Shown here piece by piece: positions 7,464 through 37,063 of a DNA stretch of 44,203 nt. A program made the position numbers and the translations under genes. Each line of letters opens with the position of its first letter. The stretch's first letter is position 1. The DNA is from an uncultured Rubrobacteraceae bacterium (GTDB lineage: Bacteria > Actinomycetota > Rubrobacteria > Rubrobacterales > Rubrobacteraceae). The notes beneath the pieces were generated by a model. The model worked only from the letters and a program-made list of their open reading frames with translations. It was not told the origin of the DNA and did not search any database. The stretch spans positions 1 through 44,203 of the forward strand of contig CADCVF010000022.1 of the NCBI GenBank assembly GCA_902806095.1, given 5' to 3'.

Positions 7464-7628
7464 GCAGCACGCTACGCCCTACGGACTCCGCTTGTCAGCA
7501 CGGCGCTTCGGACCTGCGGTCCTCGCTTTCAGCATTTCAGCCAGGTGTTGCACATGCTGAAGTGCTGACAAGCGAAGGCGAAGCCTGAGCGTGCTGAGAA
7601 GCCGCCTGCAAGGCGGCGTGCTGAACTA
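7464..7628. repeat. Hairpin repeat tract 1 (between murA and M20 peptidase)
   Basis: The tract starts directly after the murA stop. The left arm is in reverse orientation (CAGCACGC, stem, CGCTTGTCAGCA...). The centre is CAGCCAGGTGTTGCACATGC, and the right arm is in forward orientation (TGCTGAAGTGCTGACAAGCG, then the mini-hairpin GGCGAAGCC, then GCGTGCTGA). A second right-arm stem pairs GCCGCC with GGCGGC. It is one of nine such intergenic tracts in the window. Confidence 0.85.
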
Positions 7629-33846: not shown

Positions 33847-33921
<75 letters not shown>

Positions 33922-33953: not shown

Positions 33954-34024
33954 GCGGGTGTAGCTCAAAGGTAGAGCCCCAGCCTTCCAAGCTGGTGATG
34001 GGGGTTCGATTCCCCTCACCCGCT
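33954..34024 (+). tRNA. tRNA-Gly(UCC)
   Basis: The acceptor stem GCGGGTG pairs with CACCCGC. The anticodon arm CCAGC-CTTCCAA-GCTGG has anticodon TCC (reads GGA). The T-arm is GGGGGTTCGATTCCCC and the discriminator is T, as usual for bacterial glycine tRNA. CCA is not encoded. It is 33 bases after tRNA-Pro and probably cotranscribed. The low-GC islet begins just downstream. Confidence 0.95.
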
Positions 34025-34057
34025 CTCGCCCAACGTTGCAGAGGAAACGACAAGTAC

Positions 34058-34096: not shown

Positions 34097-35338
34097 TCAG
34101 CGCCCTACTGTATGCTTGTCCTTCGTACCCGTCTCGGGGCGTAACCAAAGCGAGACGTGTGCCGGTTGCATCGTCCCTCTGACCACCGTTACGAGATCGT
34201 CGCCCAGGGCATCGAGATCAGTCTCTTGGCTTAGAGTGGCGGAGAAGGCTTCCAGGGTCTTTCTCGCGTCGTACTTCCTGCGGTAGAAGCGCTTATCTAT
34301 AAGGGACTTGATGCGCCGCCTGAGTGGGTTGAACAGCGCGGCGATCACGAGGGTAGAGACGACTATGGCGAGTTGTGGCTGCTCCTCCTGGCCGGTGAGC
34401 GCGCGAAAGGCAGCCTCGGTCACTGTTACACCACCGAAGTACACCAGCGCGAGAGAGGCTGTGAGGATGCTGTAAACCAGCGTGCGGCGGATGACGATGT
34501 CGATGTCCCACAATCGATCGTGTACGATCGCTACACCGATCGACAACGGGATCAAGAGTAGGGCGCCAAAGAAACCAGCTTCGAGCGCAAGAGCGTGCAG
34601 CGGGCCGAACTGGCCGAGCGGAGAGCCAGCGACGGGTAGCTCGATTGCACCTCCTCCCAGCCCGGCCGACACCAGACCGAAGACCACCCACTTGGTTTGC
34701 TGACGCTCTACTGGAGACGACACATATCGATAGCGGTACATTTGCGAACCTATGGCGATACAAACGAAGGTCGTCAACATGGCAAAATCGAGTAGAGGTA
34801 ATGATCTGGAGAAGTCGAAGATAGACCCGGGGAAGAGGTAGAAGAACGTTTCATGCGCGACGAGAAAGACGACCGCCCAACGCGTCCAGTGTGGCACAAA
34901 CCGTCCGCTGGGAAAGAGGAGATAGAATGTATAGAATGCTACCATGCCGAAGAGCGCTAATAGACGAATCAGTAGCCACGCAGCGAAGGATTGGTCCGCT
35001 AGCGCAGGTAGAGTGGGAGGGAGACTCGAGGTGCCAAAAGTAAGGAGTAGCAGCGAAGCAAAGAAAGCCATCCAATTATCTGCCCTGCTCCAGAAGATGA
35101 TCATAGCGACTGCGACCCACACCACCGTCGAAACGAAACCGATCGAGAGTAGGCATATAGCATAGAACTGAACCGAGACCTCACTTGTTTCGAGGCTGGC
35201 GCGGACGGCCGGAAAGCTGACAATCTTGTCATAGTACGCTGGGATACTGGCGAAGAACAGCCCTACACTCACCACGAACGCCACAAGCCATCCCACCCGA
35301 GCGCTAAGGAGGAGGCGTCCGCTCAGGGTGGAGGACAT
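34097..35338 (-). CDS. ComP-like polytopic membrane protein without kinase domain
   Basis: A 413-residue protein with about eight hydrophobic segments. The following part resembles the junction region of ComP-type histidine kinases: RLWDIDIVIRRTLVYSILTA, then NPLRRRIKSLIDKRFYRRKYDARKTLEAFSATL, ending MQPAHVSLWLRPE. No HisKA or ATPase domain follows; the reading frame simply stops. It may be a receptor that hands its signal to a separate protein, or a sensor of another kind. ATG 35338 has GAGG six bases upstream; a TTG at 35392 would add 18 residues. Base composition is visibly lower in GC than in the neighbours. The gene is divergent from the peptide and prenyl-synthase genes. Confidence 0.65.
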   Translation of the reverse strand: MSSTLSGRLLLSARVGWLVAFVVSVGLFFASIPAYYDKIVSFPAVRASLETSEVSVQFYAICLLSIGFVSTVVWVAVAMIIFWSRADNWMAFFASLLLLTFGTSSLPPTLPALADQSFAAWLLIRLLALFGMVAFYTFYLLFPSGRFVPHWTRWAVVFLVAHETFFYLFPGSIFDFSRSLPLLDFAMLTTFVCIAIGSQMYRYRYVSSPVERQQTKWVVFGLVSAGLGGGAIELPVAGSPLGQFGPLHALALEAGFFGALLLIPLSIGVAIVHDRLWDIDIVIRRTLVYSILTASLALVYFGGVTVTEAAFRALTGQEEQPQLAIVVSTLVIAALFNPLRRRIKSLIDKRFYRRKYDARKTLEAFSATLSQETDLDALGDDLVTVVRGTMQPAHVSLWLRPETGTKDKHTVGR

Positions 35339-35628
35339 TAGGGCCTCGGCCCTACCGGCGAACGCGCACGGTCTCTTGCGCTCAGGACCCAAGCTAACCT
35401 GTACCTTTACCCTAGAGCTTGCTGACTCGACATGATGACAGACGACAACGAACTTGTCACCTCTCTACAGTCGACACGCGGGGGCCCTGCCTTCTACCCA
35501 AGTATTCTCTTTACCCTTACGTCTGCCGGATGCTCCGTCTGGTGGGGACTACGCTTGTGTCAAAGGGTTATTACTGGTTAAACTTCCCTGAGTGGGAGCA
35601 GAAGGTAGGCTGTGATGGGAGGGACCTC
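35339..35628. other. Divergent region of the ComQXP-like islet
   Basis: This stretch of about 290 bases separates the membrane-protein gene from the peptide gene. The plus-strand frame of the peptide is open back to 35419, but that part lacks a ribosome binding site and looks non-coding. A possible promoter is listed separately. Nothing else is recognised. Confidence 0.5.
35555..35584 (+). promoter_or_regulatory. Candidate promoter of the peptide gene
   Basis: TTGTGT (35555-35560), an 18-base spacer and TAAACT (35579-35584), about 45 bases before the peptide start. Weak match, position plausible. Confidence 0.3.
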
Positions 35629-35859
35629 ATGGAACACCAGGAGGAGATACGGTTAGAGGTGCTGAAGGCGCTGACCGTCTTGGCGGTACACGACGACCAG
35701 TTCCGGCACAGTATATGGGAGGATCTAGAAGGTACGCTAGCAAGATACGGCTTTGTCCTAAACGACCGGGAATTGGCGCAAGTAAGGGACTTCATCTATG
35801 CCGTTGACAACAGCATCAAGGATGAAGTCTTCGCAGGCCTGACAGAGCGCCACAGATAG
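35629..35859 (+). CDS. Small helical peptide, possible signal precursor
   Basis: A 76-residue, acidic, mainly helical peptide. The first part (EEIRLEVLKALTVLAVHDDQF) and the motif DLEGTLARYGFVLNDRELAQVRDF resemble leader regions of ComX-type and NHLP-type precursor peptides (a helix, then an L-x-x-YGF-x-L turn and a second helix). There is one Trp (Trp30) and no Cys. ComX peptides have a Trp near the C terminus, which is missing here (the end reads AGLTERHR). GGGAGGGA at 35617-35624 supports ATG 35629. It precedes a ComQ-like synthase by 150 bases. Its role as a precursor is inferred from context only. Confidence 0.6.
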   Translation: MEHQEEIRLEVLKALTVLAVHDDQFRHSIWEDLEGTLARYGFVLNDRELAQVRDFIYAVDNSIKDEVFAGLTERHR

Positions 35860-36008
35860 TACCCGAACGTTGGATGTGCGCCACGCGGCAAACTTGGAAA
35901 CGAACCCGTCCGCTGGGATAGCAAATTCAACCGCGATCCAATGAGGTCGTCAGCGTAGAGAGCCACAGCAAAACAGCAAGAGCCGATAAGAGGCGTCCGC
36001 GTGAGCGG

Positions 36009-36992
36009 GTGGAAAGAGTCTTTGCGTTCCTCGACGAGTTGATCCTGGCGCTACCCGTCCGCCAGGGCCACCGGCACTCATTGCAAATACACTTGAGGAT
36101 TGGCAAAGAGCGGGCAGAGGCCTGGCCACAGATGTCCTCGATCCAGTTGCCGTTTCTGGTGCACGCCGCGATCACCGGCGATGAGAGGCCGGCTCTCCCC
36201 GTGGCTGGCGCCTGTACCCTCCTGTACCTCGGCGCCGACCTGTTCGACAGCATCCTCGATCACGAGCTGCCGCCCTTGTGGCACGCCCGCGACAGGTCGG
36301 AGGCTAGCCTGGCAGCGACCACTCTTCTCGGAGCGCTCCCCCAGCTTTCCATCGCTCGTCTACAAGAACAAGGGACGCCGCCAGCAAGGCTTTGGACGCT
36401 GGCCCACCTTTTCGCAGACGCCGGCCTGACGATGGGTGCTGGTCAGTATGAGGATCTACTCCTCCCAGCTCTGGAGAACGTGTCCGTAGAGGACAGCAGG
36501 GCGATGGCGGAGAAAAAGAGCGGGGCTGAATATGCTTTGTTTGCGGCTGCCGGAGCTACTCTAGCGACCGAGGATCCCTCCACGATCGAGGCATACGCAG
36601 CCTTCGGTTCGTGTTTCGGCATAGCCCAACAGCTGATAAACGACGCACAGGACATCTGGGGCGAGGAGTGCGGTCGAGACCTCTCGAACGGGAAGCGCAC
36701 GCTCCCGGTAGTCCACGCCCTATCCACCCTGACCGGGGAACAACGCGGGCGACTTCAGAAGCTGCTCGCCGCCGCCCGTGAATCCACGGAACACCATGAC
36801 GGGGTGCTGGCACTCCTGGCAGCGGCGGGATCGCTGCGCTACACGGCTCTGATCGTATGGCTCTATCAACAGCAAGCACGGAGTCACCTGGCTAGTGCCT
36901 CTCCTAGGGAGTCAGCAGCTCGGGAACTCTACACATTGCTAGATCAGGCATCCATCCTCCCTCAGCCCAGGGAAGCACGACTCTCAGATTAG
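36009..36992 (+). CDS. ComQ-like polyprenyl synthase family protein
   Basis: A 327-residue protein of the trans-isoprenyl diphosphate synthase fold. The first aspartate-rich motif lies at GADLFDSILDHE (75-86). Asp77, Asp80 and Asp84 are present, but the second Asp of the DDxxD pattern (80-84) is Ser81. The second motif is NDAQD (211-215), followed by RDLSNGKRTLPVVHAL; GAGQYEDL (143-150) is the ComQ/IDS-like middle motif. In ComQXPA systems such a protein prenylates the ComX Trp. An alternative is a terpenoid or carotenoid prenyl synthase. GTG 36009 is the only standard start in the open frame, and its ribosome binding site is weak. Confidence 0.75.
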   Translation: MERVFAFLDELILALPVRQGHRHSLQIHLRIGKERAEAWPQMSSIQLPFLVHAAITGDERPALPVAGACTLLYLGADLFDSILDHELPPLWHARDRSEASLAATTLLGALPQLSIARLQEQGTPPARLWTLAHLFADAGLTMGAGQYEDLLLPALENVSVEDSRAMAEKKSGAEYALFAAAGATLATEDPSTIEAYAAFGSCFGIAQQLINDAQDIWGEECGRDLSNGKRTLPVVHALSTLTGEQRGRLQKLLAAARESTEHHDGVLALLAAAGSLRYTALIVWLYQQQARSHLASASPRESAARELYTLLDQASILPQPREARLSD

Positions 36993-37063
36993 CCCGCGGC
37001 AAGTCGGTCCCGGCGTACTTCGACGGCATCTCCTTCTGCCCCACCTCAGCCCACCCAGAGACG

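Follow-up and report, generated by a model that had tools for sequence, protein, structure and literature searches.

Gene content and genomic setting of the locus

Three genes lie beside a pair of tRNA genes in a 44,203-nucleotide stretch of DNA from an uncultured soil bacterium of the Rubrobacteraceae (hereafter the window): a membrane protein gene and, divergent from it, a small peptide gene followed by an enzyme gene (Table 1). All three had been named in a preliminary description of this DNA, and they were recovered with their coordinates unchanged. Its observation that they sit in lower-GC DNA next to two tRNA genes also held, as GC content reaches its window minimum at about 34.25-36 kb, with 0.546-0.561 per kb in the islet compared to a window mean of 0.623 (sd 0.022). 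Homology to the glutamate racemase-tRNA block of four genus-mates (G002, G003, G004 and G006; blastn) stops in all four at 34026-34029, the 3' end of tRNA-Gly(TCC). Since the DNA beyond this point differs from that of the window in each of the four, the islet is strain-specific.

Two further features of the setting were recorded. In G002 (L088, about 2512-2700), a tyrosine-integrase-like C-terminal remnant, LGHASINIMLDTYSRVI, was read by eye directly after the tRNA. A short interspersed repeat, TCAGCATTTCAG, occurs at 19 places between window positions 7529 and 38258 with at most one mismatch, where 0.13 would be expected, and is often paired; it is also present on contigs L045 and L021 and resembles a REP-like element of the genus.

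Table 1. Features of the islet and of the enzyme active site (window positions; L045 is a second locus, described below)
Feature	Position	Strand	Remarks
tRNA-Pro	33847-33921		adjoins tRNA-Gly upstream of the three genes
tRNA-Gly(TCC)	33954-34025	+	ARAGORN
Multi-pass membrane protein, 431 aa	34097-35392	-	ORF without kinase domain; possible, unproven partner of the pair
Peptide-enzyme cassette, conserved extent	35542-36997	+	86% identity to L045 (blastn)
Precursor-like peptide, 76 aa	35629-35859	+	Os1348/NHLP-type leader; frame nested in a longer open frame
Trans-IDS-fold enzyme, 327 aa	36009-36992	+	active site as in ComQ; predicted to act as a prenyltransferase on a peptide (Trp)
FARM, D80-S-I-L-D84	36246-36260	+	first and fifth Asp kept; next loop 5 residues shorter, no RRxxPT
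Pseudo-SARM, Q208-L-I-N-D-A-Q-D215	36630-36653	+	Asn in place of the first Asp, second Asp retained; next loop 6 residues shorter

The enzyme combines a predicted synthase fold with a ComQ-type active site

Judged by overall similarity, the enzyme resembles prenyl diphosphate synthases. Its Pfam (polyprenyl_synt) and NCBIfam matches are to synthases only, and its structural model (pLDDT 93.2) predicts a trans-IDS fold that aligns to 1wy0 with Z 35.4 and an rmsd of 2.1 over 303 residues. In the single-sequence PDB search, Ord1, a Trp prenyltransferase, came out on top (E 3e-13), level with a polyprenyl synthetase. Because canonical synthases rank above Ord1 in the structural comparison, that ranking does not decide the function of the enzyme.

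Active-site residues were then compared among four enzymes of the window type, 29 canonical synthases, of which 27 come from same-phylum genomes and two from a plasmid of Streptomyces, and three ComQ records with an annotated ComX gene next to them. All four window-type enzymes lack GKxxRP, RRxxPT after the FARM and the GK loop after the SARM, elements that are present in nearly every canonical enzyme. Together with the SARM, these elements hold IPP and diphosphate in the synthase mechanism. The SARM starts with ND in all four window-type enzymes compared to DD in every canonical enzyme but one (Strep83b, SARM N); the window enzyme retains D215 as well, whereas those of G006 and G001 retain the second Asp only. 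Loop lengths follow the same division, with 8 residues after the FARM (13 in nearly all canonical enzymes) and 13 after the SARM (19 in canonical enzymes, 18 in one). The three ComQ records lack the same three IPP-binding elements, have ND in the SARM in two cases and largely agree in loop length (4-9 and 12-13). In ComQ, the first and fifth FARM Asp and a lone second SARM Asp are functional, and a DDxx(D) SARM is unsuitable for Trp isoprenylation (PMC5331326). Judged by these residues, the enzyme carries a ComQ-type active site.

Phylogeny separates the canonical synthases by one branch (84/99), with the window type and ComQ both outside it. The firm grouping with carotenoid or quinone synthases that would have spoken against a ComQ-like enzyme was thus not seen. 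The window type forms a group (98/97) with homologues from Priestia and one Streptomyces plasmid, with ComQ in between, on long branches that make its relation to ComQ uncertain. HMM scores place many canonical synthases above ComQ, so the IPP-binding elements could have been lost convergently, and their loss could serve another acceptor. The proposed ComQ likeness is supported at the active site by the match to real ComQ records, while overall similarity alone does not place the enzyme with ComQ.

The peptide has a probable NHLP-type leader and a variable tail

The 76-residue product had been called precursor-like, and profile searches support that view. By hmmscan it matches NF038399 (Os1348-family NHLP clan) with E 3e-6 and 27.2 bits, and its orthologues on contigs L045, L021 (G006) and L003 (G001) match with E values of 1.1e-6, 1.8e-5 and 3e-4, all four falling below the curated cut-off (40 for the window peptide's score). 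This repetition across relatives hints at membership of the Os1348/NHLP RiPP-leader family. The sole Pfam match is a weak one to Frankia_peptide (hmmscan). Pfam ComX (PF05952) gave no match at the window locus, in a search insensitive enough that the B. subtilis control also fell below cut-off.

Alignment of the four peptides shows a common leader and diverging tails: GLTERHR in the window, GLTDAHR in L045, AERRIWNN in G006 and NGWWRWRVH in G001. ComQ requires a Trp 2-4 residues from the end of ComX (PMC5331326), a range that includes the Trp at -3 in the G006 peptide and at -4 in that of G001. The window and L045 peptides both end in HR and have no Trp in their tails, in line with the preliminary description, which had found no C-terminal Trp in the window peptide. 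The only Trp of either peptide is residue 30 (W30, at 35716-35718 in the window). A frameshift concealing a Trp tail was considered and rejected, since the two peptides stop at the same position.

Selection differs between the two genes. When the window is compared with L045, the enzyme has a dN/dS of 0.23 (p 1e-9) and the peptide one of 0.60, with 0.48 in its leader and 0.96 in its tail; the corresponding values for G006 against G001 are 0.38 and 0.52. Enzyme function is clearly maintained, and for the peptide the signal of purifying selection is consistent though weak (combined p 0.02). Such a fast-changing tail would be expected of either a diversifying or a decaying core.

The peptide-enzyme pair recurs at four loci

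At all four loci (window, L045, G006 and G001), the peptide gene lies immediately upstream of the enzyme gene on the same strand. None of 39 other actinobacterial NHLP-peptide loci has an isoprenoid-synthase neighbor within the ~1.5 kb examined. The L045 enzyme is 90% identical to that of the window; the two loci are alike over the conserved extent of the cassette and elsewhere only in the repeat, and their upstream DNA differs. L045 itself is a 3-kb contig labeled Pyrinomonadaceae, and is probably a misbinned Rubrobacter contig because the Rubrobacter-type repeat is present on it, as is an 84-bp stretch that matches the repeat region of the window. Divergent from the pair and upstream of it, L045 encodes a 314-aa stand-alone class II terpene-cyclase-like protein (L045:231-1175, minus strand) with a DLDDTA motif and a match to drimenol synthase (E 2.7e-7). 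A search of the window's genome and 38 other Rubrobacteria genomes, run without a positive control, detected no cyclase of this type, and in Nostoc a toroid-domain homologue was seen in a multidomain setting that is unrelated.

Among 396 Actinomycetota genomes, only the three Rubrobacter loci had an enzyme of the window type, and the remaining matches score far lower; two of these, inspected in detail, are hopanoid-cluster synthases. A scan of genome contigs for wider homologues returned only L045 and L046, a contig of G001, and two scans of viral contigs returned no homologues of this enzyme type. Plasmids yielded one unpaired homologue in Priestia and a more distant one, also unpaired, in Streptomyces. 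The former, on a Priestia megaterium megaplasmid (L060:5983-6990), is 31% identical, with the same loop deletions and ND in the SARM, and no peptide gene neighbors it. Separately, several Rubrobacter genomes encode a second conserved NHLP-type peptide (L054, L055, L058, about 1360-1830), which adjoins O-methyltransferase-like and LCP-family-like genes.

A kinase and regulator adjoin the pair in G006

On contig L021 of G006, genes for a receiver-domain regulator, the peptide, the enzyme, a histidine kinase and a NarL-type regulator follow one another on one strand. The kinase (762 aa, HisKA_3 and HATPase_c) overlaps the NarL-type regulator gene; its kinase domain resembles ComP and the regulator resembles ComA, both at the level expected of generic families. 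This is the only locus where a kinase and regulator were seen beside the pair. Given the 27 HisKA_3 kinases of G006, the chance of such an adjacency is about 1%.

The membrane protein of the window matches the N-terminal region of PrsK (E 5.5e-8) and, by Pfam, has no kinase domain. The ComP-like sensor region attributed to it was not confirmed, as BLASTP against real ComP returned nothing (E 0.31) and the protein is a member of a Rubrobacter family, mostly without a kinase domain, that is matched 23 times in the window's genome and nine times in G006. Members of this lineage-specific sensor family are membrane proteins of ~420-460 aa, some of them encoded in tandem in G001 and G006. The window protein was also considered as the missing P orthologue and rejected, since the tree does not make it the specific orthologue of the G006 kinase. 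A member of the family directly flanks the pair at each of the two loci that show the DNA on either side, an arrangement with a chance of about 5e-5 by a rough, post hoc estimate for a family partly arranged in tandem. Of the trio envisaged in the preliminary description, then, the peptide and enzyme recur at four of four loci and are joined in G006 by a kinase and regulator, whereas the membrane protein of the window is one of many paralogues in its family. The absence of ComA from the window was likewise upheld: this copy has no regulator, and no kinase domain either.

A peptide prenylation cassette as the preferred explanation

The explanation we prefer, with a probability of roughly 0.62 for the whole, is that the pair at 35629-36992 is a ribosomal-peptide prenylation cassette whose G006 version would be a ComXQPA/PalPXQ-like circuit. 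Recurrence of the pair and the ComQ-like loss of IPP-binding elements make a ComQ-like prenyltransferase with a cognate peptide well supported, so this part of the prenyl-peptide signaling first suggested is supported, whereas the trio in the window is not.

By this explanation, the small gene would encode a precursor whose helical leader is of the NHLP/Os1348 type. The enzyme would bind an allylic prenyl diphosphate at the FARM and no longer bind IPP as the second substrate. The prenyl chain would pass to a peptide residue sitting in the place of IPP, most likely Trp, with help from the NHLP leader, and PalQ and PalX of Paenibacillus offer an experimental precedent for such leader-assisted prenylation. 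In G006, the C-terminal peptide would be set free once modified, and the membrane histidine kinase encoded next to the pair would sense it and phosphorylate the neighboring NarL/ComA-type regulator. The G006 product is signal-like in its features, and signaling in that genome is plausible. The window cassette may yield a peptide with a different acceptor, whether W30 or some other residue, or it may be a signal or RiPP unit using components encoded elsewhere. Characterized trans-IDS-like peptide prenyltransferases all act on Trp (PMC13290415), and the missing C-terminal Trp of the window and L045 peptides counts against the cassette.

The alternative that survives best, though we consider it unlikely, is a prenylated and cyclized RiPP natural product in the style of ChrPC, with no signaling role and with sensors as incidental neighbors. 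The divergent cyclase-like gene of L045 would fit, as ChrPC joins Trp prenylation to cyclization (PMC13290415), but no cyclase was detected in the Rubrobacteria genomes searched, G006 has a kinase and regulator instead, and the Nostoc toroid-domain homologue lies in an unrelated setting. It is improbable that the window cassette is what decay has left of a formerly complete signaling set: the missing kinase domain, regulator and Trp tail and the near-neutral dN/dS of the peptide tail are what decay would leave, but the enzyme is under strong constraint, and reading frames are intact with the same stop position in the window and L045. We give less credence again to an Ord1-like enzyme that prenylates free tryptophan or another small molecule, with the NHLP-like protein as a partner or carrier rather than a substrate. 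Ord1 is the top PDB match, if a tied one, and two peptides lack a C-terminal Trp, but in the alignment Ord1 has the RR-containing loop, SARM DD and GKP loop that the window enzyme lacks, and the G006 and G001 peptides have their Trp at -3 and -4. Least probable is an ordinary prenyl diphosphate synthase for terpenoids, carotenoids or quinones beside an unrelated small ORF and membrane protein, which agrees with the family matches, overall similarity and structure of the enzyme, but not with the loss of GKxxRP, RRxxPT, the GK loop and the first SARM Asp or with a peptide gene kept at all four loci.

An extension of the cassette explanation, offered tentatively, is that prenylated NHLP-type peptides serve Rubrobacter as cell-to-cell signals read by a kinase/NarL pair, an X-Q-P-A system outside Bacillota. 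The cassette would then move between sites as a unit and could be coupled to different partners: a sensor kinase in G006, a class II terpene cyclase in L045, and in the window a membrane protein that is sensor-like but has no kinase domain.

Comparison with known systems

The closest described system is PalPXQ of Paenibacillus alvei, in which the PalP kinase accompanies the NHLP precursor PalX and the Trp prenyltransferase PalQ, and where prenylation was shown experimentally (PMC10853753). The Rubrobacter loci share an NHLP-type precursor (NF038399 matches below the curated cut-off, four loci) beside a prenyltransferase with a predicted trans-IDS fold, and the G006 cluster, like that of P. alvei, includes a histidine kinase. 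In PalX the Trp is the last residue, whereas Trp is at -3 or -4 in G006 and G001 and absent from the window and L045 tails. PalQ, compared by description only, keeps D200 and D204 in a SARM whose first Asp is Asn in the window type, and G006 additionally has a response regulator.

ComQXPA is the second closest. Window-type enzymes share the active-site losses of ComQ, and in G006 the peptide and enzyme genes share a strand with those for the kinase and a ComA-like regulator, with Trp at -3 of the G006 peptide (-4 in G001). Differences are the X-Q-P-A order in G006, a peptide that is NHLP-like rather than ComX-like, a sensor domain unlike that of ComP, the assignment of Rubrobacter to Actinomycetota, and the lack of P and A in the window, whose copy is the less complete of the two arrangements.

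Resemblance to other systems is narrower. ChrPC-type RiPPs combine a trans-IDS-like prenyltransferase with a cyclase, as fused domains in ChrPC and as separate genes in L045 (PMC13290415), whereas the window and G006 have no cyclase. Ord1 (PDB 9v4g), a free-Trp farnesyltransferase, resembles the window enzyme in fold and as its top single-sequence PDB match; it keeps the canonical loops and SARM DD, and nothing links the window enzyme to free Trp.

In a 2014 census, ComQXPA was found in Firmicutes only (PMC4008528), and for Rubrobacter a review of quorum sensing in actinobacteria names nothing but LuxR-type homologues (PMC4748050). No description of a prenyl-peptide signal in Actinomycetota was found in the literature searched. 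A ComXQPA-like set outside Bacillota would thus be new relative to the published census (PMC4008528), and the G006 X-Q-P-A set with its NHLP leader would join RiPP chemistry to ComX-type signaling. The Rubrobacter sets would also provide new peptide prenyltransferases, and the window variant, with no C-terminal Trp in its peptide, poses the question of the range of residues that such enzymes can modify.
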